A stretch of DNA of 64,000 nt, from assembly GCF_030295975.1 (NCBI RefSeq), contig NZ_AP027364.1, forward strand, positions 4,278,001-4,342,000, written 5' to 3'. Positions 23,722 to 40,264 of this stretch are shown here, piece by piece (position 1 is the first letter of the stretch; every line of letters starts with the position of its first letter). Both the position numbers and the translations under genes were made by a program. Below the pieces are notes generated by a model, which saw nothing but the letters and a program-made list of their open reading frames with translations, was not told where the DNA came from and searched no databases. The DNA is from Thalassotalea atypica (GTDB lineage Bacteria; Pseudomonadota; Gammaproteobacteria; Enterobacterales; Alteromonadaceae).

Positions 23722-25545
23722 CTATTCATCGGACTGCTTTAATAACCATTGATTGATTTTTTCTTCCATCAAATTAAGCGGCAAGGCACCATCTTCAATA
23801 ATTTGATCATGGAATGCTTTAATATCAAATTTATCGCCCAATGCAGCTTTTGCTTTGGCTCTTAACTCAACAATTTTGAGCTCGCCCAGCTTGTAACCTA
23901 AGGCTTGACCTGGCCATACGGTATAGCGTTCAACTTCACTGGTCGCTTCAGAAATATGAATACCTTCCGTTTTGATGGAGTAATCTATCGCTTTTTCTCG
24001 ACTCCAACCTAATCCATGCATACCGCTATCCACCACTAATCGTACCGCTCGATGCATTTCAGACTGCAGTCGACCAATATCATCAATGGGGTCATTTTCA
24101 TAAATGCCCATTTCTGCAGCTAAACGCTCAGCATAAAGTGCCCAGCCTTCTCCCGCGGCATTTGAATAAAATATGGTGTTTAGAATAGGTAGATCATCCG
24201 ATAAACCAACAATGGTTTGTAAATGATGTCCAGGGTTTGCTTCATGATAGGTCAGCGTTTGCAATGAATAAGAGGGCAAAGCAGAGGTGTCATTTAATGA
24301 TATCCAATAGGTGCCCAAGCGTGAGCCATCTTGCGATGGTGCGTCATAAAAAGCACCACTGGTAGATGCCGCTAAATGAGCCGGTACAGCTTTTACTGCC
24401 ACGTCTTGATCCGGTAATAAACCAAACCATTGCGGCAATTTTTCATTAGCAAGCGCCAAATCTTTTTTGATATCAGCGATCAGTTTGGCTTTACCTTCTG
24501 GGGTGTTTGGGTAGAGATATTTAGGATCATTTAACAATACCGTCATACGCTCACCGACAGTGCCTTTATCGTAGCCAACATTTTTTAATAACACATCCAT
24601 TTCTGCGGTGATGCGCGCCACTTCATCTAGCCCAAGTTGATGCACCTGTTCAGCTGTTAATGTTGTATCACTTAGGTGCGTGATCATCGCTGCATATAGT
24701 GCTTTACCGTTGGGTAAATGACCAATACCTGCTTTATGAGACGCGTAAGGTTTAAGGGCTTCTAAGCTCGCAATAAGCTTTTCGTTGGCAGGATAAAAAC
24801 TGGTTTTAACTGCTTTAATCGTAGCTGCGATATAGTCTGCTTTGTTAGTCGATGTTGCCTTCTCTAGTTTTTCAACCATGCTCGTCACTAGGGCATGATC
24901 TTCAGGAGAAAACTCGTTCTGAAGTCTCAAGTTATTGATGGTTTTGTTAATGACAAAATCAGGCGGAACAACACCTAGTTTTCTATCATGTTCAATTTTT
25001 GATATGACACTATCAATCACATCATCATAATCGTTCAGACGGGTCAGATAAGCTTTCGCTTGCTCGTCATTACTGACCGCAAACTTATCCACCATGTAGG
25101 CAGGAAATTCAACATGAACACCCGATAAATGGCTTATAGGGTAAGGTAAGAACCAAGCGCCATATTCACCTAAAATAGAGCCATACTCGACTATGGTTGC
25201 CGGTTTGTAGGCCGAAGAAATTTCCGTTTCGATTAACCTTAAACTAATACGTTCTTTATCGGTCAGCTTGCTTTGGTCAATTTGTCTCAGCTCAGCAATC
25301 AATGCTTTTACTGATTCACGTCGCGCTTGCTCTGTGGTTTGATCAAAATAGCTCGATTTCTCCATAATACCTTGGCCCGCATCTTTATCATCAAGGCCGT
25401 AATAGCTGGCAATAATAGGGCGGAGTTCAAAGTATTTTTGCGATAACGTATGCATTTGTTCGTTGAAATCGCTCTTGTGTGCGAGGGTGACAGTACTAAA
25501 AAGTGCAAGGCCAATTGTGGCGATGGCACTGAACAGACGATTCAT
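23722..25545 (-). CDS. DUF885 peptidase-like secreted protein
   Basis: 607 residues from the ATG at 25545 (preceded by GGA 7 bp upstream; an ATG four codons earlier is less likely). A signal peptide (MNRLFSAIATIGLALFSTVTLA) shows export. The family motif TYHEANPGHHLQ in the second half supplies probable metal ligands. DUF885 proteins look like zinc metallopeptidases or carboxypeptidases of the periplasm; the substrate is unknown. It is divergent from the 3-hydroxybutyrate dehydrogenase gene. Confidence 0.87.
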   Translation of the reverse strand: MNRLFSAIATIGLALFSTVTLAHKSDFNEQMHTLSQKYFELRPIIASYYGLDDKDAGQGIMEKSSYFDQTTEQARRESVKALIAELRQIDQSKLTDKERISLRLIETEISSAYKPATIVEYGSILGEYGAWFLPYPISHLSGVHVEFPAYMVDKFAVSNDEQAKAYLTRLNDYDDVIDSVISKIEHDRKLGVVPPDFVINKTINNLRLQNEFSPEDHALVTSMVEKLEKATSTNKADYIAATIKAVKTSFYPANEKLIASLEALKPYASHKAGIGHLPNGKALYAAMITHLSDTTLTAEQVHQLGLDEVARITAEMDVLLKNVGYDKGTVGERMTVLLNDPKYLYPNTPEGKAKLIADIKKDLALANEKLPQWFGLLPDQDVAVKAVPAHLAASTSGAFYDAPSQDGSRLGTYWISLNDTSALPSYSLQTLTYHEANPGHHLQTIVGLSDDLPILNTIFYSNAAGEGWALYAERLAAEMGIYENDPIDDIGRLQSEMHRAVRLVVDSGMHGLGWSREKAIDYSIKTEGIHISEATSEVERYTVWPGQALGYKLGELKIVELRAKAKAALGDKFDIKAFHDQIIEDGALPLNLMEEKINQWLLKQSDE

Positions 25546-25606
25546 AGAAATATCCAAATATTATTTTTAGTTTATCGGCCCATAATAGCACACCAATGAA
25601 CCCGAT

Positions 25607-25652
25607 ATGGTACTAAGGTGCTAAATCACTAATCCTTATTTTACAGTACCAT
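25607..25652. promoter_or_regulatory. Perfect inverted repeat before the 3-hydroxybutyrate dehydrogenase gene
   Basis: ATGGTACT (25607-25614) and AGTACCAT (25645-25652) are perfect reverse complements with 30 bases between them. The left arm continues into ACTAAGGT, which also occurs (as ACCTTAGT) at 28724-28731 in front of the kinase gene. Candidate operator for the response regulator at 33520 or another factor. Confidence 0.35.
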
Positions 25653-25689
25653 CAGAGCCATATTTACCAGATAAATTAAGGAATTTGTG

Positions 25690-26472
25690 ATGCTTAAAGG
25701 TAAAGTCGCACTGATCACCGGTTCAACCAGTGGTATCGGTTTGGCAACCGCGCATGTACTGGCAGGTGAAGGTGTGAATTTAATTCTTCATGGCTTATTA
25801 GATCCTGAAGAAGGAGACAAATTAGCGCAACACTTTAGCGTGCAATATAAAATTAACGCCATTTTCGACGATGCCGATTTACGTAATCCATTGGCAATAC
25901 AGCAATTTATCGACAGAGCACAATTCGAATTAGGCACAATTGATATTTTAATTAATAATGCTGGCATCCAACATACGGAGCAAACGGCAAGCTTTCCATT
26001 AAACAAGTGGAATGACATTATCGCGATCAACTTATCCGCCGCGTTTCACACCATTCAAAAATCTTTGCCCGGCATGCAAGTCAATCAATGGGGGCGAATC
26101 ATCAATATCGCGTCAGTACATGGCTTGGTCGGCTCAAAAAATAAATCCGCTTATTGCGCTGCAAAACACGGCATTGTGGGGTTAACCAAGGTAGTGGCTC
26201 TAGAGTGTGCTGAACAAGGCATAACGGTTAATGCCATTTGTCCGGGTTGGGTGGATACGCCATTAATTAATAAGCAAATTTCTGATATCGCCGCCCGCGA
26301 TAATGTCGAACTAGCACAGGCCAAATACAACTTAGTGACCGCAAAACAGCCGCAACCTGAAATGATGGAACCTAAACAGATTGGCGAATTTATTTTATTT
26401 TTGTGCAGTGATAGCGCTCGTAGTATCACAGGGGCTTCATTACCAATGGATGGGGCTTGGACGGCGCAATAG
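25690..26472 (+). CDS. bdhA: D-3-hydroxybutyrate dehydrogenase
   Basis: 260 residues from the ATG at 25690 (AAGGA 7 bp upstream; a GTG directly before it is too close). SDR fold with TGSTSGIG and NNAGIQHTE. All residues known to bind and turn over 3-hydroxybutyrate in the Pseudomonas enzyme fall at the same numbers: Q94, S142, H144, K152, Y155, K159 and W187 (in SVHGLVGSKNKSAYCAAKHG and PGWVDT). It oxidises D-3-hydroxybutyrate to acetoacetate with NAD in the cytoplasm. It opens a region rich in ester hydrolases, transport and a two-component pair. Confidence 0.95.
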   Translation: MLKGKVALITGSTSGIGLATAHVLAGEGVNLILHGLLDPEEGDKLAQHFSVQYKINAIFDDADLRNPLAIQQFIDRAQFELGTIDILINNAGIQHTEQTASFPLNKWNDIIAINLSAAFHTIQKSLPGMQVNQWGRIINIASVHGLVGSKNKSAYCAAKHGIVGLTKVVALECAEQGITVNAICPGWVDTPLINKQISDIAARDNVELAQAKYNLVTAKQPQPEMMEPKQIGEFILFLCSDSARSITGASLPMDGAWTAQ

Positions 26473-26483
26473 CTTAAGTTTAT

Positions 26484-26519
26484 AAAGCCAAGTTTATCCT
26501 TCCGCTTGGCTTTCTTTTT
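26484..26519. terminator. Terminator between bdhA and the esterase gene
   Basis: 9-bp stem AAAGCCAAG (26484-26492) / CTTGGCTTT (26505-26513), 12-base loop, then CTTTTTC. Serves the plus-strand gene; the minus strand has only three T after the stem. Confidence 0.8.
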
Positions 26520-26545
26520 CGATACTTCTTGCTACTTTGCAATAG

Positions 26546-27481
26546 CTAACCTTGCGTAAACTCAGAGATCAGTTGATAGGTTTTTTCACACTCTTCTTTG
26601 ACTAAGTTTTCGATCAGCATAAACGCATGCACCATTCCCGGAAACTGATGGCACTTAACTCTGACACCGGCGCTTTCTAATGCTTTAGCATATGCAATAC
26701 CTTCATCCTTGAGTGGATCGCAACCACCAACAATAACCAATGATTCTGGCATATTCGAACTAAAATATCCTAATAACGGGGAGGCCTTTTTAACGATGTC
26801 ATCGTTTAAATCGGACACCTGAAAGTATTGCTGGAAATACCACACAACTTTGTCCCGCTCTAATAAATAACCATGGCCATTTTCTTCCACTGAAGGCAGA
26901 GACATGGTGTAGTCAACACTGGGATAGATCAAAACTTGCTTATCTATTTTGACTGCATCATTATCGATATTATTCATCACTAAGCTGGTACAAATTGCCC
27001 CGCCAGCACTGTCACCTGCGATAAATAACTGTTCGTTAATTTTTTGTCCGCTAAGTAACTTTTTATAATGTTCAAGTGCATATTGGCAATCATCAATGCC
27101 GGCCGGAAATGGGTGCTCTGGCGCTAACCGATAGTCCACACAAATAACGATGGCACGGGCAGCAATCGCTAGTTTTCGACTAATAGGATCGTACACCTCT
27201 ACATCACCACACATATGACCGCCGCCATGAAAATGCAACAATACAGGCAATGTTTCATTTGGCGAAGGATTATAAATACGAACGGGAATTCGTTGATCGC
27301 CAAGGTATTTATCTTCAATATGGGCAATCTCAGGGCCTTCATCTAAAAAGGTTGTAAGATTTTTTAAACTCCCCCTGACGCGCTCTGCGCTGAACGAAAT
27401 ACCTGACTCTTTCGCCTCAGCCAATGCTTGATTTGCCTGGTCTAGAAACGCCGTTAATTTAGGTGAAATTACTCCGCGCAT
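26546..27481 (-). CDS. Alpha/beta hydrolase of the hormone-sensitive-lipase family
   Basis: 311 residues without a signal peptide. The HSL oxyanion motif HFHGGGHMCGD, the nucleophile elbow GDSAGGA (S158), the acid in GGCDPLKDEG and the histidine in FPGMVHAFM make a full catalytic set. It should cleave short acyl esters in the cytoplasm. The start overlaps the end of the MFS gene by 13 bp, so the two are translationally coupled. In this locus an intracellular oligomer or ester of 3-hydroxybutyrate is an attractive substrate, by inference. Confidence 0.9.
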   Translation of the reverse strand: MRGVISPKLTAFLDQANQALAEAKESGISFSAERVRGSLKNLTTFLDEGPEIAHIEDKYLGDQRIPVRIYNPSPNETLPVLLHFHGGGHMCGDVEVYDPISRKLAIAARAIVICVDYRLAPEHPFPAGIDDCQYALEHYKKLLSGQKINEQLFIAGDSAGGAICTSLVMNNIDNDAVKIDKQVLIYPSVDYTMSLPSVEENGHGYLLERDKVVWYFQQYFQVSDLNDDIVKKASPLLGYFSSNMPESLVIVGGCDPLKDEGIAYAKALESAGVRVKCHQFPGMVHAFMLIENLVKEECEKTYQLISEFTQG

Positions 27482-28653
27482 AATATGTCCTCCTGTCTAC
27501 GACCCGTTTCTGGTAGGAAGAAACTGCCAATAAAAAACGTCAAACTTAGTAACGAAATCAGTATAAAAGACGTGTGATAGTCGCCCTGATTAAGGTCGAC
27601 TAACTTGCCAAAAATCCATAACACCGCGGTAGAAACAAGGTAGCTGATAGAGTAAAACAAACTAAATATCACGGTAATACGTTCGCTGGTCATGTTTTTC
27701 ATTTCATGCGGAATTGACACCAGTGCTGTGATAGGAAAGAAAATGAAGAAGCCAAGCACAATAGCCGATAATGTTTGTAGCCACTCGACTGGGCTAAAAG
27801 ATAAACCAATTATGGTAATTGTCATGATCACTCCTGATATGCGAATGACCGGAATACGCAACGACACTTTCTTGCTGTAGATAATGCCCGCCAGCGTACC
27901 AACGATACCAAAGCCAATCACCCACTTACTTTGGCTAATACCCGCTTTCGGGTAAAAGGTAAATAAACAAATATAGAAGGTCAGCAAACCAGAATAGGTC
28001 AGGGCATAGGCCCAATTGAATCTGTCTTTTAATCCTTGCAAGTAGCCGTATGAAACTATCTTTTCGTCGCTGGCAGATTCACATTTTGCATTAGAATCAA
28101 AGCGCACGAGTAGCCAGGCTAGGCTAAGCAATAAACTGGCAATGGAAAAGCTCACTAAACTCGCTTTCCAATCACCTGTCATTTGGTTAATTGCCGGCAT
28201 CTGCCACAAAATTATGGCAGTCCCCACGTTAAAGGCAACGGCATTAAGGCCATTGATCATCGGCCGTTCTTTAGCAGAAAACCAATGCAGCACAATGGGA
28301 TTGAAATACACAATCATAAAGGCGCCACCTAAGCCCATTAAAAATCGACTTAATAACAACAATTCATAATTCGGCACAAATGGTGTTAGCACGCCAATGG
28401 TGATCAAAACACTCGAAAAGAAGAACGCGTATTTGATACCTAACTTGACGGCAATCCACGCTGCGCCAAAAGTGCCAACGATTTTAGCTAGGGTGACTGC
28501 ACCACTGATAAAACTGGCTGACGCTAAACTGTCAATCTGCATCGAAGACATGATTTGAGGCATGCTCGCTGTACCGCCTACCCACGCCATTGCAAACAAG
28601 ACATAACTAACAAAAACAATAGCTTCAACGAGGTATTTGTTACCTATTTTCAT
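27469..28653 (-). CDS. Major facilitator superfamily transporter
   Basis: 394 residues with about 12 hydrophobic helices. MFS features include LGIKYAFFFSSVLITIGVL, RFLMGLGGAFMIVYFNPIVLHWF after the second helix pair, and a central polar loop (around residues 190-205) between two six-helix halves. It lies in one transcript with the HSL esterase. Substrate may be a small carboxylic acid or ester taken up for hydrolysis, but the family does not determine it. Divergent from the transporter-kinase gene. Confidence 0.88.
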   Translation of the reverse strand: MKIGNKYLVEAIVFVSYVLFAMAWVGGTASMPQIMSSMQIDSLASASFISGAVTLAKIVGTFGAAWIAVKLGIKYAFFFSSVLITIGVLTPFVPNYELLLLSRFLMGLGGAFMIVYFNPIVLHWFSAKERPMINGLNAVAFNVGTAIILWQMPAINQMTGDWKASLVSFSIASLLLSLAWLLVRFDSNAKCESASDEKIVSYGYLQGLKDRFNWAYALTYSGLLTFYICLFTFYPKAGISQSKWVIGFGIVGTLAGIIYSKKVSLRIPVIRISGVIMTITIIGLSFSPVEWLQTLSAIVLGFFIFFPITALVSIPHEMKNMTSERITVIFSLFYSISYLVSTAVLWIFGKLVDLNQGDYHTSFILISLLSLTFFIGSFFLPETGRRQEDILCAE

Positions 28654-28687
28654 ATATGGTAATTTCTAACTTGGACAATAATCTAGC

Positions 28688-28797
28688 AGTAGGTTACCGC
28701 ACGCGTGGCGACAAATAACTACTACCTTAGTTCACTACCCAATAAGACAACGCATGTTATGCTTGTACGGTAGCTCCACACTGGCACAGCCCAGTGT
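28688..28797. promoter_or_regulatory. Divergent control region with ACTACC boxes and a hairpin
   Basis: The 190 bp between the MFS and kinase genes contain ACTACC at 28721-28726 and 28734-28739, an inverse form GTAGGT at 28689-28694, GGTAG at 28769-28773, and a 7-bp inverted repeat ACACTGG (28778-28784) / CCAGTGT (28791-28797) with a 6-base loop. Candidate sites for a NarL-type regulator. Confidence 0.35.
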
Positions 28798-28843
28798 TGT
28801 GATGTTGATGAACGCAATAGTAAAATAAACAAAAGGTACTTCA

Positions 28844-31800
28844 TTGTTAGTTTGGCTTTCTCTAGATACTTGGTTTATCACCTTCCTTTCTATTGCTTAC
28901 CTCGTGTTGCTGTTTATTGTCGCTCACTGGGGGCAAAATCAGTCAACTGAAAATTGGACATGCAAGCCTTGGGTTTATAGTCTGTCACTGGGCGTAAGCT
29001 GCAGCACCTGGGCGTTTTACGGTACGGTAGGCCAAGCCGCCACCACGGGTGCTTGGATCGCTCCAATATATATTGGTTCGATATTGTGCTTGGTGCTAGC
29101 ATGGCCAATGTTGCACAAAATGCTGCTGATAATTAAACAGCAAAACCTCACCTCACTTGCTGATTTTATCGCCTTTCGATATGACCGTTCACCAAAAATA
29201 GCGGCAACGGTTTCCTTAATCGCACTGGTTGGCATTATTCCTTATATTGCCTTGCAATTACGGGCGATCAGCACCAGCTTTGATTTACTGACCGGCACCT
29301 ATCAATCGGGCATCAGCACCGCGTTTGTCGTGACATTAGTACTGATCATTTTCAGCATTTTATTTGGCACCCGCCAAATAGCAGCCAATAAACAAAACCA
29401 AGGCTTAGTACTCGCCATTGCTTTTAGTTCAATAGTGAAGTTATTGGCATTAACGGCTATCGGCATTTTCGCAACATTTTTTGTCTTTGATGGCTTTAAT
29501 GATTTACTCGCTCAACGGGAAAACATCAAACCCGCAACACAAAGCAACACCGTATACTTAACGGTAGCCCAGGTAATACTAGGTGCGATTACGATTTTCA
29601 TCTTGCCTCAACAATTCCACATGATGATGATTGAAAACCATGATGAGCAAGAGCTAAGAACCGCACGTTGGCTTTATCCTGTTTATCTGATCCTGATTAA
29701 TATTTTTATATTACCCATCGCCATTGCTGGGCAATTAACCTTTCCAGGTGGCAGTGTCGACCCCGATACTTATGTATTAACCATACCATTATTTTACCAA
29801 CAAGCTTGGTTGGGTATTGTTGTTTATATCGGCGGCTTAGCGGCCGCAACCAGTATGGTGATTGTCTCGGCGATAGTGCTCAGTACGATATTTGTCGCTG
29901 AGGTATTAACGCCATTAATCCTCAAATTTAAATTGTTTAGCTCGCCACAAGCACCTAAGTTTTCAGGCGCTTTATTGAACCTAAGACGCAGCTCGATAGC
30001 GCTCATTTTATTACTGGCTTTTATTTTTGAGCGTTTTGTTGATCAGCACAATCATTTGGCTACCATCGGCTTACTGTCATTCGTTTTGCTATCACAATTT
30101 GCCCCTGCAGCTATTGGCGCGCTGTACTGGCGCAAAGCAAACACAAAAGGCGCATTCAGTGGGTTAATTGTTGGTAGCTTGCTATGGTTATATACCTTGT
30201 TATTGCCGTCATTGATGCCCGATAGTACTTGGGTACAACAAGGGCTATTAGGACTGACTTGGTTAAAACCAACCGCATTATTTGGTATCAATTTCCTTGA
30301 TAGCACCAGCCACGGCGTTTTTTATAGTTTATTGGCCAACCTGCTTTGTTATGTGTTTGTTTCGCTAGCAAGTCATCGCAGCGTTGGTGAGCAACTGCAA
30401 GCGGAATATTTTGTTAATAAAACCCAGGGCCAAGTAGAGCGCGACTTATCCCTGAACGATTTGTACAGTTTACTACTGCGCTTCATTGATAAAGACAGCG
30501 CCGACAAGCTCACTGCTTATGCCAATACATTAGATAAGCACAGTGAATCTTCAAAACGAAAATTAGTCGACTACACCCGCCTACAATTGTCGAGTGTACT
30601 CGGCTCAGCATCAACACGCATGGTAATGAAGGCTGCTTCAACCTCGCAGGAAATGCCGCTCGAAGATGTCGTTAGTATTGTGGATGAAGCCAATGAAATA
30701 TTTCGCTTTAATCGAGAATTACTGCAATCGGGGGTGGAGAATATCGAGCAAGGGATCAGTGTGGTGGATGCCGATATGCGCTTGGTCGCATGGAATCAAC
30801 GCTATATCGAGTTACTTAATTATCCTGAAGGGTTCGTTTCGGCAGGTAAACCGATTAAAGATCTTATTGCATTTAATATTGCCCAAGGGGTGATCACCGG
30901 CGCAGAACAAGAGGAGCTGATTGCTCGCCGAATTGATCATATGAGAAAAGGCAATAGTCACTCATTTCAGCGGACAATGCCTAATGGCTTAGTGCTTGAA
31001 ATAAAAGGGCAACCGATGCCCGGTGGCGGCTTTGTCAGTACCTTTTCTGACATTACCGCGCATATTGAAGCTGAAAAAGCCCTGCAACAAGCCAATGAGA
31101 CACTGGAAAAGAGAGTCGAACAACGAACGCTAGCGTTAAAACAAGCCAAAGCCGAGGCAGAAGCCGCAAACAGCAGTAAAACCCGATTTTTAGCGGCAGC
31201 CAGCCATGATTTGATGCAACCTTTCAATGCATTGACCTTATTTACCTCAATGTTAAAACGGAAAGTACAAGGTGAAGAATTATCATTGCTCGCCACTAAC
31301 ATTGACGACTCATTAAATGTTGTCGAAGCCTTATTGTCAGATTTGGTGGAAATTTCGCGGCTTGATAACAACTCAGAATCAAAAGAGCAAAGAGACTTCG
31401 CCTTAGACGAGCTATTACTGCCCCTTAAAAATGAGTTCACCGTGTTAGCAGAGCAAGACGGTATTGAATTTCGCTATCAACACAGTAGTTGTGTTGTCCA
31501 TTCTGACAAGCGCATGTTACGCCGCATTGTCCAAAATTTCTTATCCAATGCGGTGCATTATTGTCAGGACAAACACGGTGATAAATCGGGATTAACCAGT
31601 AAGATTTTACTCGGTGTTCGTCACAACAAAGATAATGTTCGTATTGAAGTCTGGGACAACGGACCCGGCATAGCCACTGAGCAACAAATAAAAATATTTG
31701 AAGAGTTTGAACGTTTAGAGCAAACCAGAGAAGTGCCCGGCCTAGGGCTAGGATTAGCGATTGCAGAGCGGATGGCATCCTTATTAGGGCTAAATATTTC

Positions 31801-32287
31801 AGTTAAATCTGAGTTAGGTAAAGGCACAGTGTTCATGATTGATGTGCCTCGCGTACAACACCTTCAAGCAGCCTCTACACCGGCACTTGAACCAAGCACG
31901 GATAAATCAGTGGATGATTTTGCCAACTTGTCAGTACTACTGGTTGATAACGATGTATTAATGCTCAAAGCAATGACTTCGCAATTAAAAGATTGGGGCT
32001 GTGATGTTTATAGCGCAACAGATGTTAACTCTGCGAACGCCGCACTAGGTGAAATGGCAAAACCACCTCATTTTATCATTGCTGATTATCATCTCGATAA
32101 CAATGCCAACGGCGTTGATTTAGTCGCCGAATTGTTAAAATCAAGACAATGGGATATTCCTTGTATGATTTGCTCTGCCGACCCGTCTGAACAAGTCAGG
32201 CAGCATACCAGCAATGAAAATTATGTCTTCTTGAGAAAACCGGTCAAACCGTTAGCATTAAAACGCTTTATTAAGCAAGTTACTTAA
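28844..32287 (+). CDS. Transporter-fused hybrid histidine kinase (CrbS/MxtR-like)
   Basis: 1147 residues from a TTG start (AAGG 7 bp upstream). Residues 1 to about 510 form a sodium/solute-symporter-type membrane domain with 12-13 helices. A PAS domain follows around 626-740, a short coiled coil, then the HisKA domain with H788 in ASHDLMQPFNAL, the ATPase domain with NFLSNAVHY, WDNGPGIA and GLGLGLAIAERM, and a receiver domain from about 1029 with D1081 in IIADYHL and K in RKPVKP. This architecture is that of CrbS, MxtR and ErcS'-type kinases, which control acetate and short-chain carbon use with a NarL-type partner. The likely partner is at 33520. Ligand here may be 3-hydroxybutyrate or acetate, by inference. 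Confidence 0.93.
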   Translation: MLVWLSLDTWFITFLSIAYLVLLFIVAHWGQNQSTENWTCKPWVYSLSLGVSCSTWAFYGTVGQAATTGAWIAPIYIGSILCLVLAWPMLHKMLLIIKQQNLTSLADFIAFRYDRSPKIAATVSLIALVGIIPYIALQLRAISTSFDLLTGTYQSGISTAFVVTLVLIIFSILFGTRQIAANKQNQGLVLAIAFSSIVKLLALTAIGIFATFFVFDGFNDLLAQRENIKPATQSNTVYLTVAQVILGAITIFILPQQFHMMMIENHDEQELRTARWLYPVYLILINIFILPIAIAGQLTFPGGSVDPDTYVLTIPLFYQQAWLGIVVYIGGLAAATSMVIVSAIVLSTIFVAEVLTPLILKFKLFSSPQAPKFSGALLNLRRSSIALILLLAFIFERFVDQHNHLATIGLLSFVLLSQFAPAAIGALYWRKANTKGAFSGLIVGSLLWLYTLLLPSLMPDSTWVQQGLLGLTWLKPTALFGINFLDSTSHGVFYSLLANLLCYVFVSLASHRSVGEQLQAEYFVNKTQGQVERDLSLNDLYSLLLRFIDKDSADKLTAYANTLDKHSESSKRKLVDYTRLQLSSVLGSASTRMVMKAASTSQEMPLEDVVSIVDEANEIFRFNRELLQSGVENIEQGISVVDADMRLVAWNQRYIELLNYPEGFVSAGKPIKDLIAFNIAQGVITGAEQEELIARRIDHMRKGNSHSFQRTMPNGLVLEIKGQPMPGGGFVSTFSDITAHIEAEKALQQANETLEKRVEQRTLALKQAKAEAEAANSSKTRFLAAASHDLMQPFNALTLFTSMLKRKVQGEELSLLATNIDDSLNVVEALLSDLVEISRLDNNSESKEQRDFALDELLLPLKNEFTVLAEQDGIEFRYQHSSCVVHSDKRMLRRIVQNFLSNAVHYCQDKHGDKSGLTSKILLGVRHNKDNVRIEVWDNGPGIATEQQIKIFEEFERLEQTREVPGLGLGLAIAERMASLLGLNISVKSELGKGTVFMIDVPRVQHLQAASTPALEPSTDKSVDDFANLSVLLVDNDVLMLKAMTSQLKDWGCDVYSATDVNSANAALGEMAKPPHFIIADYHLDNNANGVDLVAELLKSRQWDIPCMICSADPSEQVRQHTSNENYVFLRKPVKPLALKRFIKQVT

Positions 32288-32397
32288 CCGATTGAACTTT
32301 TTATATTTTCTGCTAACTTATTAGAACATCAGTCAATGGACATTACTGAGCCCTTTACATGATAAAATGTAAGGTAACTGAATAAGGGCAGGCGCAA

Positions 32398-32967
32398 ATG
32401 GATTTCATCAAGATAGGATTACTGATTATTCTTAATAAGCTACTCCTGTTAGTTATTGGATTAATTACTGGTGGAGTAGTTGGCTACTTTACTAACTCAA
32501 CGTTACTAGGTGTGATAGTTGCCCTATTAATTATAGGTGGTTTGTACTTTTATATACTTGGTCCAGTTCATTTCGTGACTAAAGAAAAGCTACAGTTACT
32601 TGTGGAAAAGGAATTAATTGTAGCCACACCTATTAACCCGTTCACTAAAGCTTTAAAAACCTTAAACTTAAAAAATAAGTGGGAGCATGGTGAGGGAGTA
32701 CTTGATCAATTTAAAGATAGTTATAGCACTCAACTACATCAAGAAAATCTTTTCTTCTTTAATAGAGGTATGCCATATTTACCTCTATATTTCCTGCCTT
32801 TATCGTCAATTTATAGTATCCAGAAAGACTCTGAGTTTATTAAGGACTTAAAGTTTCAAGATGACAAAAACATTTACGAAATAGTTATAAACGGTCAGCA
32901 TAAAATTGCTCTTCCTATGGATAGTGAATCTGCTGAAATTGTAATGAATTCGATTGGTTTAAAATAG
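32398..32967 (+). CDS. Membrane protein with cytosolic tail, function unknown
   Basis: 189 residues. Two hydrophobic helices at about 5-27 and 34-55, then a 130-residue soluble part with several Phe and Tyr (FFFNRGMPYLPLYFLPLSSIYSI). No family recognised. It lies between the kinase and the VOC gene, with separate gaps of 110 and 129 bp. Confidence 0.6.
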   Translation: MDFIKIGLLIILNKLLLLVIGLITGGVVGYFTNSTLLGVIVALLIIGGLYFYILGPVHFVTKEKLQLLVEKELIVATPINPFTKALKTLNLKNKWEHGEGVLDQFKDSYSTQLHQENLFFFNRGMPYLPLYFLPLSSIYSIQKDSEFIKDLKFQDDKNIYEIVINGQHKIALPMDSESAEIVMNSIGLK

Positions 32968-33096
32968 ATCAGGTGTTCAACACTGTCTAAAAAGCGCATT
33001 AAGTAACGGAATACTTAACAGTTAGCTTGGAGATCAATTTAGCCAAGTATTTATCTGCCCTTTATGCAAATGTTATACATCAAATGGAGTTAATCA

Positions 33097-33465
33097 ATGA
33101 TTTCTCATACAACTTTAGGTACCAACAACCTTGAAAAAGCAGCGCTATTTTATGTCGACATAATAGCTGCAATGGGTGGTACTCAGATATATAAATCAGA
33201 TAGCGTCATTTTTTGGGAATTTGAAGGGGGTAGTTCAAAATTAGCTCTTACTGTTCCGTTTGATGGTCAGCCAGCAACTCATGGTAATGGAACAATGGTT
33301 GCTTTTACCCTACCTAATATAGATAAAGTCAACGAGATCTATTCAATGGCCTTAAAGTTAGGGGCGAGTAGCGAAGGTGAGCCTGGAGAAAGAAATGGCG
33401 GCGCTTATTACGGCGCGTATTTTAGAGACCTAGATGGTAATAAAATAGCTATTTTTCATCGGTGA
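33097..33465 (+). CDS. VOC-fold glyoxalase/bleomycin-resistance-like protein
   Basis: 122 residues of one vicinal-oxygen-chelate unit: N-terminal MISHTTLGTNNLEKAALFYVDII, the middle THGNGTMVAFTLPNIDKVNEIY and the terminal YGAYFRDLDGNKIAIFHR, which bears the usual metal-ligand region near the end. Substrate unknown; many relatives are labelled glyoxalase-like. Convergent with the response-regulator gene. Confidence 0.85.
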   Translation: MISHTTLGTNNLEKAALFYVDIIAAMGGTQIYKSDSVIFWEFEGGSSKLALTVPFDGQPATHGNGTMVAFTLPNIDKVNEIYSMALKLGASSEGEPGERNGGAYYGAYFRDLDGNKIAIFHR

Positions 33466-33519
33466 TTTAACTAAGCGGCTACATTCATTTGTTAATATAA
33501 AAAGAATTGAATGGCGCTA

Positions 33520-34197
33520 CTAAGCGCTTTGTAGATCACCATCATTTTCAGGTAGGGTTAGCATTAACTCTTGATAAGCAAGCCCTGCTAATGTTCTATT
33601 ATTCACTTCTAGCTTCGATAAAATTGCCGAAACATGTTTTTTCACTGTCGTTTCTTTAATGTCCAAGTCGTACGCAATTTGTTTGTTTAACTGGCCATCG
33701 GCGATTTGAGTCAAGACAATATATTGCTGTGGAGTGAGCTGGGCTAATTGTTTCGCTAGCCGACGATGAGCAATCAAGGTTTGTTGATCAACATTGTTTT
33801 CAACGCACTCAGGTAACCAAATATCACCTTCAAGTACACAATCTATTGCTGTTGAAATCATTTGTAGATCAGCTGATTTCGGAATAAACGCAGCGGCGCC
33901 GAAGTTAATCGCTTTTTGCATGGTGTCATTGTTGTCGTCAGAAGAGACCATGATCACGACCAGATCAGGGTAGTGGTTTTGCAATTGCGTTAAGCCAGTA
34001 AAACCATTATTACCCGGCATATGTAGGTCGAGAAAAACAATCTCCAAACTGGGGTTACGCTCTATCGCCGTTAATAAATCACTAAAGCACTCGGCTTCCA
34101 ATGTTTGCGCATCATCTATGCATTCGATAATCGCTTGTTTCAGCGCAGTGCGAAACAGCGGGTGATCATCGGCAATAATAACTTTTGATTCTGACAT
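33520..34197 (-). CDS. NarL/LuxR-type response regulator (CrbR/ErdR-like)
   Basis: 225 residues. Receiver domain with the acidic pair in IIADDHPLF, phospho-acceptor D57 in VFLDLHMPGNNG and a lysine in AAFIPKSADL. The C-terminal LuxR helix-turn-helix runs LTPQQYIVLTQIADGQLNKQIAYDLDIKETTVKKHVSAILSKL. This matches the partner regulators of SSS-PAS-kinase hybrids such as CrbS. It lies 1.2 kb from the kinase gene, on the opposite strand, and directly downstream of a TonB receptor gene but behind a terminator. Confidence 0.9.
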   Translation of the reverse strand: MSESKVIIADDHPLFRTALKQAIIECIDDAQTLEAECFSDLLTAIERNPSLEIVFLDLHMPGNNGFTGLTQLQNHYPDLVVIMVSSDDNNDTMQKAINFGAAAFIPKSADLQMISTAIDCVLEGDIWLPECVENNVDQQTLIAHRRLAKQLAQLTPQQYIVLTQIADGQLNKQIAYDLDIKETTVKKHVSAILSKLEVNNRTLAGLAYQELMLTLPENDGDLQSA

Positions 34198-34231
34198 AAC
34201 GACTCCATGCTCATATCAACTGACAGTATGA

Positions 34232-34262
34232 AAAAAAGAGCCGGCCTATGCCAGCTCTTTTT
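34232..34262 (-). terminator. Terminator between the TonB receptor and response-regulator genes
   Basis: A/T-flanked stem: AAAAAGAGC pairs with GCTCTTTTT, with an inner GGC/GCC pair and a CTAT loop. Read on the minus strand it follows the receptor gene and ends in a T-run. Confidence 0.78.
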
Positions 34263-34283
34263 ATTTGCTAACTCACACCTAGC

Positions 34284-36545
34284 TTAGAATTGATAGCCAA
34301 GTGTAAATGAAATAGTGCGCGGGTCACCATAATAGCCAATGAGCGTATTATCGCCACCTAACCCTGGTAAATAACTACCATCAGGTTGTGGTGCAACAAA
34401 CTGATAGCCGCCAATCATATATTCTTGATCCGCAAGGTTTTTCACGTGTAGCCCCGCGTACCAATCAGCATCTGTGCTGTACCAATTAACACTGACATTG
34501 GCGATACCATAGCCGTCTTGCGTTAATAAGCTGTTCTCCTCAAATAACACATAGTCATCACGGTAGTAATAACTGGCATTAATAATGAAGTCACCAACAT
34601 CAGACTCTATGGTGTAATTTGCCCCTAAGTTGTAGGTGTAATCTGGCGTATTAGAAATGGAGAAACTATCTGATTTATCAAACTCTTGCCCAGTTTCAGG
34701 ATCGGTATCAATTACTTCCTTAAAGTCTGAATCAATATAGCCAAAACTAGCCGTTAGCAATAAATTGTCTGTGGCTAAATAAGTAAATTCTGCCTCAATA
34801 CCTGTCGCTTCTGAGCTACCGATGTTGCCTAAACGTTGATTCAGCTCTGTGGCATCTTCACTTGGCAATACCGAAATGTATTGGCGATCGTCATGGTCGA
34901 GTGAAAATAACGTGATATTGGCGCGTAAACGATTGTCTAACCACTCACTCTTCATGCCAATTTCGAACGAATCTACTTCTTCCGGATCTGCTGCTGGCTC
35001 TGCCGTTGTTGCTCTTGGGTTAAAGGTACCTGATTTAAACCCTTGTGCAAAACTGGTGAAAAACATTAAATCATCATTGGCCTGATATTCAACGCCGATA
35101 CGCGGGGTAAATTTAGACCAATCGTCTTCATCGTCTAATACCGTTGGCACTAAGTCACCTTCAGGGCGTACATAACCGTCAACCCAACCAGATTCAGGAT
35201 AAACCGTGGCAAATATCAATCCGTTATTAACTTTCGCTTCTTTCTCATCTTTGGTGTAGCGTGCGCCAGCTGTTACTGACCATTTTTCTGACAAGTCATA
35301 ACTTAATTGAGCATACACCGCTTTACTGGTTGAATTACTGCAACCACTGACTTCACGAGTTAATCCTGGCACACCAATGGCTTGGCCGAGTACTTCAAGA
35401 ATCGCTTCAAACTGACCACACGACTCACCGTCATAATAATAAAGACCAGAAACAAATTTATAGTTATCGCCGTAATGATTTAGCTGCAACTCATGTGTTT
35501 TTTGCTCATCATCATAAATGGCTGGAACATCAAAAATGCGCAGAGCAGTATTGTCAAAATCAATATTGGTGGGCGAGTAACTATCACGTGAAGAAAAAAC
35601 GTATTTCAAGCTGGTGTTATCAGCAACGTCCCAATTTGCTTTAAAGCTGATACCTTCAAGTTCTACTTCATTCCAAGTCGGCAAACTGGTGTATGAATCA
35701 TAAACACTGTCAGGTACTGGAGCTTCAGTTAATACGCTAGGCAATAAACGATAGCCGCCTTTTGAATTAGAATCATCTTGAGTTTTATCCCAATTTAGGC
35801 TGAAAAATAAATCATCTGTCGCGCGGTATTCCAGCGTTAACCGACCTGCTACTACGTCTTTATTGTAGTTTTCTTCGTCTTGATGATCTAAATCCGACTC
35901 TAGAAACTCGCCGTAACCGTCCCGTTGTAAACTGGCTAAACCAAAACCAACATAAAGCTTGTCTTCAATAATTGGATATTGACCTGTGACCTTGATATCG
36001 CGTTGATTATACAAGCCCATCGTACCTTGCACGTTGAGCTCGGCATCGCCGGACATTTCCTTAGTCACGTATTTTATTGCGCCACCAACGGTGTTTTTAC
36101 CGTACAGCGTACCTTGCGGACCACGTAACACTTCGACCCGTTCAATATCCAGTAAATCAAGGACCGCACCTTGTGGACGAGCAATGTAGACATCATCAAT
36201 ATAAATACCGACACCAGCTTCATAGCCCCACAGCGGATCTTGTTGACCTACGCCACGAATAAACGCAGTAATGGTTGAATTCGTGCCTCGGCTACGTTGC
36301 AACGTAGTATTAGGGGAAAATTGCTGCACCTCGGTTAGCACTTCAATGCCTTTTTCTGCCAATTCATCAGCGCTAATTGAGGTAACGGCAACAGGTACTT
36401 CTTGTAAACTTTCAACTGATTTACGCGCAGTGACCTCAATTCGCTCTAAACCGGAATCTTCTTCAGTGGCTATTGCTATTTGGCTTATTAGCGCGGTAGA
36501 AATAGCAACGGCAACACTGCTTAAATTACTGATCCGTGACTTCAT
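34284..36545 (-). CDS. TonB-dependent outer-membrane receptor
   Basis: 753 residues from the ATG at 36545, chosen because GGGGAAG lies 5-6 bp upstream; the ATG six codons earlier has none. Signal peptide MKSRISNLSSVAVAISTALIS, cleaved near IAIA. Plug domain: ESLQEVPVAVTSISADEL, FIRGVGQQDPLWGYEAGVGIYIDDVYIARPQGA and VEVLRGPQGTLYGKNTVGGAI. The barrel ends in RTISFTLGYQF. It is downstream of the PHB-depolymerase-like gene on the same strand (166 bp gap) and upstream of the regulator. Uptake of oligomers released by that esterase is the working idea; direct evidence is lacking. Confidence 0.92.
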   Translation of the reverse strand: MKSRISNLSSVAVAISTALISQIAIATEEDSGLERIEVTARKSVESLQEVPVAVTSISADELAEKGIEVLTEVQQFSPNTTLQRSRGTNSTITAFIRGVGQQDPLWGYEAGVGIYIDDVYIARPQGAVLDLLDIERVEVLRGPQGTLYGKNTVGGAIKYVTKEMSGDAELNVQGTMGLYNQRDIKVTGQYPIIEDKLYVGFGLASLQRDGYGEFLESDLDHQDEENYNKDVVAGRLTLEYRATDDLFFSLNWDKTQDDSNSKGGYRLLPSVLTEAPVPDSVYDSYTSLPTWNEVELEGISFKANWDVADNTSLKYVFSSRDSYSPTNIDFDNTALRIFDVPAIYDDEQKTHELQLNHYGDNYKFVSGLYYYDGESCGQFEAILEVLGQAIGVPGLTREVSGCSNSTSKAVYAQLSYDLSEKWSVTAGARYTKDEKEAKVNNGLIFATVYPESGWVDGYVRPEGDLVPTVLDDEDDWSKFTPRIGVEYQANDDLMFFTSFAQGFKSGTFNPRATTAEPAADPEEVDSFEIGMKSEWLDNRLRANITLFSLDHDDRQYISVLPSEDATELNQRLGNIGSSEATGIEAEFTYLATDNLLLTASFGYIDSDFKEVIDTDPETGQEFDKSDSFSISNTPDYTYNLGANYTIESDVGDFIINASYYYRDDYVLFEENSLLTQDGYGIANVSVNWYSTDADWYAGLHVKNLADQEYMIGGYQFVAPQPDGSYLPGLGGDNTLIGYYGDPRTISFTLGYQF

Positions 36546-36621
36546 AATCTTCCCCATGTTCATTAATTATTTTAGAGTTTCTTTCACTTATATTTTTAAG
36601 CTTTTTGGACTGTAAGAAACT

Positions 36622-36660
36622 CTATAGTAAAATGGCGAAAACATAATTTGTACTATAGTA
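36622..36660. promoter_or_regulatory. Repeated CTATAGTA element upstream of the TonB receptor gene
   Basis: CTATAGTA occurs at 36622-36629 and 36653-36660, 31 bp apart (about three helical turns). The second copy is part of the perfect palindrome TACTATAGTA (36651-36660). A related TACTAT lies at 37665-37670 (as ATAGTA) before the depolymerase gene. Confidence 0.35.
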
Positions 36661-36711
36661 GTATACGGACAAAATAGTTTATAACCACTTGATATTTATC
36701 AATTATTATTT

Positions 36712-37647
36712 TTAATATTTGTCTAATCCCCAAAAATTTATCAGGCTTTTCGCAGTGCTTAACGGTGATTTCAAAAGAAAAGGGGCCACGCTGCCGCCAT
36801 GTTCAATTGCCGGATTTACGGCCATGCCGTGAGTCATGTTGTCAATTTCTAGCAGCTCGACTTTACTGTCATCTGTGCTCCCCCAGCGAGTAACACGATA
36901 ACCCTGATTTAACTCCATCTTTTTGTTCGCGGGCAGACCAATCAGTTGTGCCCAATGCTCGGCCAGTGATTGTGAGTTTTTGGGATTAACCACCTTGTCT
37001 TGTGAGCCTGTCCATACCGACATGCTTGGCCACGGGCCCTGATAATTATTAAGAGCACGTACTTGTTCAGTTAACTCATTAGATAATTGTGTAGGTCCAA
37101 TGCGCATGCATGAAATCGCTTTCGTTAGATTATTCGCGCAAGGGTATGGCACGCCAGAAATCACAGCGCCGGCATCAAAAAGCTCAGGATAGTTAACCAG
37201 CATCACGCTCGCCATCGCCCCACCGGCCGACAAACCAGTAATATACACTTGTGACGCATTGAGTTTGTTTTTGGCGTGCAAAATCATATTTTTGAGTGAA
37301 AGGCTCTCACCGCTGTTTGATAAAATATCTTGCTCAGAAAACCAGTTGAAACAACCTTTAATGTTGTTTCTTTCGCTTTGCTGTGGCACCAGCAAGGCAA
37401 ATTTATGGGCGTGTGCTAAATCGACAAAACCACTTTGCTTAGCCAATTGCTCCCCTTGTTGAACACAGCCATGGAGCAATACCACCAGCCCATCGGAAGA
37501 GGGTTGTGTTGCATATAAACTTGCGGATATCTCACCGGGATTATCACCAAAATCTACCAAAGGTGAGAAACTGGCAAAGATTATTTGATGGTAAAAACAA
37601 AGGACAACAGTGACAGTTTGTAGAAGCTTGGCTGGGGATAAGAGCAT
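36712..37647 (-). CDS. Secreted PHB-depolymerase-family esterase
   Basis: 311 residues from the ATG at 37647, which has AGGTGA 6 bp upstream; the GTG three codons earlier overlaps that SD. Signal peptide through about residue 25 (VVLCFYHQIIFAS). Oxyanion motif LLHGCVQQGEQLA, nucleophile S140 in YITGLSAGGAMAS, acid in SQDKVVNPKN and histidine in NMTHGMAVN follow the extracellular poly(3-hydroxybutyrate) depolymerase family. No separate substrate-binding or linker domain is present, so soluble oligomers or other esters may be hydrolysed instead of granules. Followed by the TonB receptor gene. Confidence 0.88.
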   Translation of the reverse strand: MLLSPAKLLQTVTVVLCFYHQIIFASFSPLVDFGDNPGEISASLYATQPSSDGLVVLLHGCVQQGEQLAKQSGFVDLAHAHKFALLVPQQSERNNIKGCFNWFSEQDILSNSGESLSLKNMILHAKNKLNASQVYITGLSAGGAMASVMLVNYPELFDAGAVISGVPYPCANNLTKAISCMRIGPTQLSNELTEQVRALNNYQGPWPSMSVWTGSQDKVVNPKNSQSLAEHWAQLIGLPANKKMELNQGYRVTRWGSTDDSKVELLEIDNMTHGMAVNPAIEHGGSVAPFLLKSPLSTAKSLINFWGLDKY

Positions 37648-37651
37648 TCGG

Positions 37652-37707
37652 TTCACCTAAAATAGTACATACGTCAACAGCATGACGCACAATCAAAGTT
37701 AGGTGAA
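37652..37707 (-). promoter_or_regulatory. 5'-leader hairpin that could mask the depolymerase ribosome-binding site
   Basis: On the minus strand TTCACCTAA (37707-37699) is followed 38 bases later by TTAGGTGAA (37660-37652), a perfect 9-bp pair. The right arm contains the AGGTGA Shine-Dalgarno sequence. Just beyond it, GCATTC next to the left arm can also pair with GAATGC around the start codon. Confidence 0.45.
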
Positions 37708-37765
37708 TGCTACTTTAGTGCCAATCAACAATGGAAGTAATTAATAAGCGAATCTAAAGATCAGC

Positions 37766-39193: not shown

Positions 39194-40264
39194 TTAAGAC
39201 AAATGCGGTGCTTTGACGAATTTGTTTTTCAAATGTTCTAAACCATAGATTGCAAGACAGGCATATAATGTCACCATAATAAACAGTCCCATACGCACAG
39301 CAAAAGCGGCATAAACATCTTTACCATTAGCACTATCTTCAACAGCAGGACCGAGTACGATGAGCATGGTTACAAAAGTATTTTGCCAAAACGATGCAGA
39401 AAATCGAGACGGTAAAATGCGATAAATTTTGCTGACAAAGTAAAGCGAAAACAACAATAGCCAAGCACTAAACATAAACAAGTTAGTCGACAAATCGAGT
39501 AAAAACCAAAATAGAATCGCAAAACATCCCGCCAAAAACGTTGAGCCCAGTAACTCTTTACCTGCATCTTTTGCTGACATGGTAGAGCCTTGCTGACCAA
39601 GCGTTACCGCCTTCATGATTATGGCCATGTACATCAACGGGTTGGTTAGCGTCAACAAGTAAGTGGGTAACACGATCAATGTGCTACGTAATGCAATCCA
39701 GTTAGAGGTTTGACTATTTTCAGGTAGCTCAGGCTTTGTTTTGGCCGCTATCACATCTGCTTTTGTTAATACATTAGGAAATAAAGGATAAACTAACCAC
39801 TGACACAACACAGCGATAGCAATTGCCGAGCAAAAACCCTGTATGACGGTGATGGCCAATACATGGTTTACCAGACCAGCTGCAGAGATCATGGTAAAGC
39901 CAATCGTCAAAAGTATTCCTAATAGCGCTTTTCCCAAAATTACCGTGATATAAGTACTAAAGTACAACCCAAAAGCGACCATCATGATAGCCGATAATGG
40001 GTATTGCAGTAATAACGGCACCAATAACACCCCAATACCAAGAGAGATGCAAACCACTATCACTAATGCAATCAGCGCTTTAAATGTTATCGCTGGTGCA
40101 GGTTTAACCGCCAGCAACAATCCCATAATTGGCGCCAAGAAAGGTAATGGCATTGCACTGGCATATGCAATTGCCAATGCCAACGTCACCACAGCGCTTA
40201 ACCTAAACGCGCGTAAAGCGGGAACTGGCATGTTGAACATCGTAACTACACGGTTAATAGGCAT
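39194..40264 (-). CDS. DUF2955 (FUSC-like) inner-membrane protein
   Basis: 356 residues with about 10 helices in two groups and a short polar stretch near residues 170-185 (AAKTKPELPENSQTSN). The pattern fits the DUF2955/aromatic-acid-exporter-like family that works with HlyD proteins. The start overlaps the end of the HlyD gene by 11 bp. It should be the inner-membrane part of the export system at 39194-42972. Confidence 0.82.
   Translation of the reverse strand: MPINRVVTMFNMPVPALRAFRLSAVVTLALAIAYASAMPLPFLAPIMGLLLAVKPAPAITFKALIALVIVVCISLGIGVLLVPLLLQYPLSAIMMVAFGLYFSTYITVILGKALLGILLTIGFTMISAAGLVNHVLAITVIQGFCSAIAIAVLCQWLVYPLFPNVLTKADVIAAKTKPELPENSQTSNWIALRSTLIVLPTYLLTLTNPLMYMAIIMKAVTLGQQGSTMSAKDAGKELLGSTFLAGCFAILFWFLLDLSTNLFMFSAWLLLFSLYFVSKIYRILPSRFSASFWQNTFVTMLIVLGPAVEDSANGKDVYAAFAVRMGLFIMVTLYACLAIYGLEHLKNKFVKAPHLS

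Follow-up and report, generated by a model that had tools for sequence, protein, structure and literature searches.

Polysaccharide utilisation loci combine an outer-membrane receptor, a hydrolase, an inner transporter and a dedicated sensor under shared control. Polyhydroxybutyrate (PHB) is, like its related polyesters, marketed as a plastic that degrades in the sea; to our knowledge the entry of the released oligomers into Gram-negative cells is usually left open. Here, we assessed a window of 64,000 nucleotides of Thalassotalea atypica (C1:4278001-4342000, within the complete 4.39 Mb genome), in which the original prediction had named seven genes, those of a secreted esterase of the PHB depolymerase family, a TonB-dependent receptor, an MFS transporter, an HSL-type esterase, D-3-hydroxybutyrate dehydrogenase (HBDH) and a CrbS/CrbR-like pair of kinase and regulator, laid out like a polysaccharide utilisation locus for a polyester. 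All seven were open frames where they had been placed, and family models supported the calls. The locus is probably one for the utilisation of external PHB fragments, a reading in which we infer the substrate, the direction of transport, the location of the enzyme, the signal and the binding of the regulator to its operator.

The only close precedent for a TonB-dependent PHB system that we recognised in the open-access literature, as far as the available texts go, is MASE_06600 of Alteromonas macleodii, a TonB-dependent transporter likened to the window receptor by its neighbouring gene only. PHB was predicted as its substrate from the neighbouring PHB depolymerase, and its transcript was higher under carbon limitation (log2 fold change of 1.59) (PMC7190382, available text). 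This was a prediction for a single gene in one strain, and no switch, operator or interchangeable arms are described in the available text (PMC7190382). The claim that no TonB-dependent system for PHB oligomers had been described was thus too broad by this one Alteromonas receptor (PMC7190382, in part); it held for the system as a whole, of which we found no description in the open-access literature, although subscription journals could hold one. Compared with polysaccharide utilisation loci, the window locus likewise encodes a receptor, a hydrolase, a candidate inner transporter and a sensor, but polyester enzymes take the place of glycoside hydrolases and the putative control is of the CrbS/R type; none of the ten window proteins searched matched SusD. 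The kinase and regulator share their domain order with CrbS/CrbR (MxtR/ErdR), and the sites near them share the geometry NAC-N4-GTN, whereas the regulator scored far below the ErdR cut-off and the local sites are of the form TAC-N4-GTA, not GAC-N4-GTC. Published ACTU sites include TACGACTAAAGTCTAAA (PMC5715377, available text).

The original prediction had made it a point to check whether the receptor and the esterase stay neighbours in other genomes, and they proved to do so. In T. atypica, the gene of the single-domain short-chain-length polyhydroxyalkanoate (PHA) depolymerase with its type 1 catalytic domain (36712..37656, minus strand; NF050058) lies 148 bases upstream of that of the receptor (34284..36563, minus strand; plug and barrel), which is followed on the same strand by the gene of a CrbR/ErdR-like, LuxR-type response regulator (33520..34197, minus strand; Response_reg and GerE). 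A stem-loop with a T run was seen in the sequence between the receptor and regulator genes and was not listed by the terminator scan. Receptor homologues (E<=1e-120) were present in 209 of the 295 family genomes sampled, so that the receptor might serve to recognise marine users of polyesters from their genomes; models of type 1 and type 2 depolymerases matched in 98 and 109 of these genomes, respectively. Linkage was tallied at a threshold of 12 kb for 150 receptor matches with listed coordinates (the receptors of 59 further genomes were not counted), with short type 1 enzymes kept apart from long ones (at least 500 amino acids). A short-chain PHA depolymerase was found within this distance of 117 of the 150 receptors; 47 were near a short type 1 gene, 68 near a type 2 gene and 33 near none, the remaining two being near a short plus a long type 1 gene and a long type 1 plus a type 2 gene. 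Counted from the enzymes, where the genome had a listed receptor, this receptor was near 48 of the 51 short type 1 genes (about 0.3 expected for a random gene, by our estimate for a 4.4 Mb genome) and near 69 of the 79 type 2 genes, as against just 2 of 33 long type 1 genes. Short type 1 neighbours came from 15 genera and type 2 neighbours from 17, without overlap; the two types have their active-site elements in a different order, and both converge on one receptor. Esterase, receptor and regulator were adjacent in 16 of the 17 loci fetched with the esterase, which in the other (L038) was approximately 4.5 kb off. The receptor is linked to degradative enzymes and a regulator across genomes, as in a TonB-dependent utilisation locus. 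The core of the original proposal, a polyester utilisation locus with the receptor as a candidate TonB-dependent importer of 3-hydroxybutyrate (3HB) oligomers, is supported by this conserved neighbourhood, by the second depolymerase type beside the same receptor, by the linkage of HBDH and SCOT genes in many relatives, by a motif at four promoter regions and by the lack of a PHB-synthase match.

The enzymes next to the receptor differed among the 57 loci labelled (the window, 55 from genomes and one from a plasmid). A type 1 arm, consisting of the depolymerase and often the MFS-HSL pair and HBDH, was present in 18, and a type 2 depolymerase in 11, typically with a divergent GntP-family permease, a MetX-like E22 esterase and HBDH; six had an arm of permease, acyl-CoA ligase and E22 esterase, 17 had a permease and/or E22 esterase, often with HBDH and ScoAB, and five had no labelled arm. 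The regulator was labelled in 52 of the 57 loci, and a kinase was within reach in 37. Besides the window, 9 of 17 type 1 loci had the MFS-HSL pair. In L074, L078 and L085, the type 2 enzyme scored above the NF050059 cut-off; in L078, HBDH was above the TIGR01963 cut-off and the permease was a partial GntP match above the Pfam cut-off, and in the type 2 locus L070 no E22 esterase was labelled. Among the 33 listed receptors with no depolymerase nearby, 20 were opened, and 19 had an arm for the use of esters, 11 of them with HBDH (hand tally): eight had HBDH and ScoAB, three HBDH beyond the kinase, three the ligase arm and five a permease and/or E22 esterase only. The last receptor (L077) had none of these arms beside it, and an HBDH gene two genes away. 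Most E22 esterases start with signal-peptide-like stretches, and the type 2 enzyme of L074 has a lipobox (both by eye or simple pattern); cleavage in these relatives therefore looks largely periplasmic or cell-bound, and type 1 loci may finish it in the cytosol by means of the HSL enzyme. The loci with receptor, GntP-like permease, acyl-CoA ligase and E22 esterase and no depolymerase were L080, L081, L084, L112, L115 and L120. The ligase of L080 matched 3-(methylthio)propionyl-CoA ligase best, though without reaching that cut-off, and exceeded the cut-off of a model for fatty-acid ligases in general.

The depolymerase of the window scored 251.3 bits with NF050058 (cut-off of 150), with the model spanning residues 36-309 of 314. 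H62-G-C, S143 in GLSAG, D220 and H276 were invariant across eight sequences and, with roles taken from knowledge of the family, give the type 1 arrangement of an oxyanion-hole histidine N-terminal to GxSxG and a Ser-Asp-His triad. The x1 residue of Gx1Sx2G was hydrophobic (GLSAG in the window enzyme, GFSAG in L008), as in 81% of type 1 proteins (PMC2666664, available text). A linker and a substrate-binding domain after the catalytic domain define the classical extracellular short-chain depolymerases, and a Paucimonas enzyme is the only validated one without a binding domain, according to the available text of the same source (PMC2666664). The model coverage leaves no room for a linker or a binding domain, and the enzyme was therefore classed as a single-domain type 1 relative and not as a full member. 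Its N-terminus looked signal-peptide-like by eye; it would be secreted or, as we prefer and consider more likely, periplasmic. A depolymerase of Rhodospirillum rubrum combines a catalytic domain of the 'extracellular' kind with a periplasmic location (PMC2666664, available text); its domain is of type 2, whereas that of the window enzyme is of type 1 and its periplasmic location a candidate only. Long type 1 enzymes were present in relatives, mostly distant from the receptor locus, and because of this and the missing binding domain we favour oligomers over solid polymer as the substrate. What had been proposed as outer cleavage thus keeps the depolymerase family and loses ground on location, since this single-domain enzyme may hydrolyse oligomers in the periplasm. 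Six of the eight named relatives of the esterase in GTDB contigs belonged to Colwellia or Cognaticolwellia. Colwellia and related bacteria are reported on PHB and similar polyesters in seawater and at the bottom of the deep sea (PMC5877338; PMC10817984). Colwellia genomes from PHA-covered deep-sea samples encode more than 10 secretable depolymerases, in a report in whose available main text TonB does not occur (PMC10817984), and Colwellia is named among the dominant members of seawater biofilms on PHA film (PMC5877338, available text).

The kinase of the locus (28844..32287, plus strand) has the CrbS-like order SSF-PAS-HisKA-HATPase-REC (Pfam), that is, a hybrid histidine kinase fused to an SSF domain, the latter a weak match (23.4 bits versus 22.8), together with a LuxR-type regulator. 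The regulator reached 200.9 bits with the ErdR model NF041830, below the cut-off of 390, and is on this measure ErdR/CrbR-like and not a canonical member; it is a candidate activator of the locus. A second, paralogous pair, 35% (kinase) and 43% (regulator) identical to the local one, is encoded elsewhere in the genome beside a gene of a sodium/solute symporter. We tentatively take the second pair for the acetate-type one because its regulator was more ErdR-like (249.9 bits, also under the cut-off of 390); the symporter belonged to the VC_2705 family (818 bits, below the ActP cut-offs), which makes an acetate role less secure. The original assignment of a CrbS/CrbR-like pair was borne out in domain order and qualified in that the local pair is one of two in the genome and the less ErdR-like. 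In trees rooted at the midpoint and unevenly supported (starred inner branches 7 of 32 for the regulator and 15 of 22 for the kinase), the local pair grouped with the pairs of other receptor loci, the second pair fell outside on long branches, and loci with type 1 and type 2 arms mostly formed two groups. The kinase of L085 joined that of the second pair, which was flagged as a possible long-branch artefact.

Operator-like sites were present at four promoter regions of the locus, namely upstream of HBDH (GTACTAAGGTGC, 25610..25621; matrix score of 11.9), in the divergent MFS/kinase region (28722..28733; 8.7, the lowest of the four), upstream of the receptor (CTACTATAGTAC on the coding strand, 36650..36661; 17.3) and upstream of the depolymerase (GCACTAAAGTAG on the coding strand, 37710..37721; 10.2). 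The receptor site, the highest-scoring of the four, is the sole exact match of ATAVTACTAWNGTAC in the genome. In a half-site test of four patterns against single-base shuffles, 41 of the 57 loci had TAC-N4-GTA upstream of the receptor (3.8 expected), within a longer block near ATAGTACTATGGTAC that was conserved against diverged flanks, whereas GAC-N4-GTC was not enriched (1 of 57; 1.8 expected). Genomes that are related do not provide independent upstream regions, and the expectations come from shuffles and not from a tree. Of the exact pattern matches across the family, 72 of 85 were directly upstream of the receptor, the 85 being those among 150 listed matches that lie in genomes with a receptor coordinate.

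Other promoter regions were scored with a symmetric 12-base matrix derived from 40 receptor sites outside the window, and only where they exceeded 100 bases (17 of 18 regions for type 1, 5 of 9 for HBDH1 and 34 of 37 for the kinase). A GTACTATAGTAC-type palindrome with a score of at least 9 preceded the type 1 depolymerase in 16 of 17 regions (0.3 expected), the MFS gene in 5 of 10 (0.2 expected), HBDH2 in 3 of 22 (0.3 expected) and the kinase in 8 of 34 (0.6 expected), the last being partly the MFS site seen from the opposite side. No enrichment was observed at the regulator (2 of 51; 1.6 expected), E22 (0 of 33), type 2 (0 of 11) or HSL (0 of 10) regions, and the count at the permease (31 of 33) concerns the same divergent region as the receptor and is not independent of the training set. 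The independent tests are those at the depolymerase, MFS and HBDH genes and the counts in the window. There, nine sites scored at least 8.6, a threshold chosen after the weakest site (8.7) was known, and only four of them were intergenic, one each in the promoter regions of HBDH, MFS/kinase, receptor and depolymerase. As ten Markov controls had between 1 and 8 matches per 64 kb, the evidence lies in the placement of the intergenic sites and not in the total number of sites. The one-mismatch pattern had nine matches in the genome, as did its reversed control, so that single weak sites outside the locus are meaningless. In the 20 kb of the second pair, GACTTTAGTC and GACTAACGTC lay between genes (2 of 15 loose matches, three of them intergenic) and resemble the published ACTU motif (PMC5715377, available text); the sites of the two switches may thus agree in geometry and differ in their half-sites. 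Pairs of sites 82 bases apart, a possible double operator, occurred in genomes G231, G316, G138, G182, G215, G271 and G246. A perfect GTACTAAAGTAC palindrome at 39954 (score of 18.3) lies inside the coding frame 39194-40264 and upstream of no gene.

The remaining enzymes would complete the pathway. HBDH (25687..26472, plus strand) had been credited with all seven signature residues of its family, and the identification was confirmed: it was above cut-off with NF009093 (317.5 bits; cut-off of 258) and TIGR01963 (307.5; cut-off of 307.05), its best solved relative was 1wmb (282.5 bits), and in the alignment to 1wmb it keeps all the substrate-binding residues known from Pseudomonas fragi HBDH (Q, S, H, K, Y, W, Q, W). 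Family models and these residues together place it among the D-3-hydroxybutyrate dehydrogenases. The MFS gene (27469..28653, minus strand; MFS_1, with no NCBIfam transporter model above cut-off) and the HSL-family esterase gene (26546..27481, minus strand; Abhydrolase_3, under the cut-offs of the NCBIfam HSL models) share 13 bases; the former product is a candidate inner-membrane importer and the latter, without a signal peptide by eye, a candidate cytosolic cleaver of 3HB esters or oligomers. In the proposed pathway, water-soluble 3HB oligomers would bind the TonB-dependent receptor and be pumped into the periplasm, and the single-domain depolymerase, secreted or more probably periplasmic, would shorten them; the MFS protein would bring the resulting monomers or short oligomers into the cytosol for final cleavage by the HSL esterase, HBDH would oxidise 3HB, and a SCOT whose genes lie elsewhere in the genome would activate the acetoacetate formed. 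The locus-specific CrbS/CrbR-like pair would sense a compound of the pathway, perhaps through the SSF domain of the kinase, and the regulator would activate the depolymerase, receptor, MFS-HSL/kinase and HBDH promoter regions through the GTACTATAGTAC-type operator. As a serious but tentative extension, this may be a 'selfish' polyester system, in which a dedicated TonB receptor actively pumps in 3HB oligomers and depolymerases that lack a polymer-binding domain cleave them in the periplasm, in which the switch was duplicated from the acetate switch, with a changed operator half-site and a transporter-like sensor domain retuned to 3HB, and in which receptor and regulator form a fixed core for four exchanged arms. 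The conserved receptor, switch and candidate operator offer a concrete, testable uptake route, and the two pairs a natural experiment on the divergence that follows when a signalling pair is duplicated along with its operator.

The esterase could instead be a CE1-like acetylxylan or feruloyl esterase in a locus that scavenges acetylated material, with the CrbS/R-like pair answering to the released acetate. Its nearest solved relatives in both sequence and fold were indeed feruloyl and acetylxylan esterases of fungi, with a PHB depolymerase only a little behind, and CrbS/R is an acetate switch in Vibrio and Pseudomonas (PMC5715377, available text). The structure model was moderate (mean pLDDT of 65.8), and its fold neighbours did not separate PHB depolymerases from feruloyl and acetylxylan esterases. 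The enzyme is, however, above the NF050058 cut-off, and in the alignments its CFNWFS was closer to CWNWFD of the PHB depolymerase 8daj than to CWDVSS of an acetylxylan esterase. Genomic context decides for a PHB depolymerase: a type 2 PHA depolymerase stands beside the same receptor in other genomes, HBDH and SCOT genes join these loci, and the second, more ErdR-like pair is encoded elsewhere, beside the symporter gene. Scavenging of acetyl esters is on this evidence rather improbable. We also regard it as unlikely that the enzymes and inner-membrane genes use 3HB esters while the receptor is a mere neighbour that imports an iron ligand or another ester. The receptor matched 24 NCBIfam receptor models, mostly of siderophore, haem and vitamin receptors and every one under its cut-off, and relatives on plasmids stand in other contexts in three annotated records; yet receptor and regulator stay constant while the enzymes change, the receptor has the strongest of the four sites, and no gene of iron uptake besides the receptor was found among the ten window proteins searched.

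It is highly improbable that the receptor and depolymerase serve to recycle PHB which lysis sets free from the cell's own kind, be it the cell itself or its kin. PhaC_N, the mark of a PHB synthase, matched in 12 of the 60 genomes searched and in 6 of the 28 receptor-bearing ones, own genome included (hand tally), but not in the own genome or in 21 further receptor-bearing ones. Two CoA-transferase genes lie side by side at C1:3007828-3009121 and are taken for the SCOT subunits; because of this pair and the lack of a synthase match in the own genome, external 3HB polymer or oligomers are the likely food. Besides the fungal relatives of the esterase, several further observations weigh against a utilisation locus for external PHB fragments: 33 of the 150 listed receptors lacked a depolymerase at the 12 kb threshold, in six type 1 loci no kinase was found nearby (L005, L007, L008, L009, L031 and L032, of which L008 and L009 are short stretches), only two of the five scored HBDH1 regions carried the motif (0.1 expected), and the motif count at the receptor (45 of 57) consists largely of training sites and is not independent. 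The ligase-arm loci suggest that some relatives handle another acid or its ester. Colwellia is cited as PHA-making (PMC10817984, available text), against the absence of a synthase match in the own genome.

Further receptor homologues were found at a greater distance. A structure model of the receptor from nine sequences was unusable (mean pLDDT of 36.9). In L085 (genome G048, another family of the order), a receptor with 41-44% identity adjoins a type 2 depolymerase (377.5 bits), with a GntP-like permease and a CrbS-like kinase. A class-wide search (E<=1e-140) matched 4 of 369 genomes, including the own one and G030; the other two receptors (L103 and L104, 47-48% identity), from another family of the class, were without any labelled arm. 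In L103 (G572), the receptor stands with an SSF symporter, an AMP-binding ligase, an alpha/beta hydrolase and an SDR gene, and in L104 (G667) with neighbours of similar sizes; these sets may represent one more arm that follows the same plan. A plasmid search with the receptor gave 27 records, all below 60% identity and mainly from sphingomonads (28-38% among the 15 listed). No PHA gene was named in the three annotated neighbourhoods, one of which had an unspecified alpha/beta hydrolase directly behind the receptor, and in a fourth, without annotation, labelling found the receptor only; the plasmid relatives were rejected as the same system since their contexts differ and no PHA genes are named. 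Receptor homologues with one in-frame TAA each occurred at G120:C103, G069:C36 and G147:C36.

Other genes of the window accompany the locus. Between kinase and regulator, on the plus strand, lie the genes of a 189-residue protein without a family match (32398-32967) and of a glyoxalase-family protein (33097-33465), neither of which was matched at that position in 17 type 1 loci. A DUF885 gene (23722-25557, minus strand; 516.9 bits) is divergent from HBDH, and the intergenic region common to both holds the operator-like site at 25610. Genes of a DUF2955 membrane protein, an HlyD-type adaptor and an outer-membrane efflux protein follow in series at 39194-42972 (minus strand); these look like an efflux system unconnected with the polyester locus.

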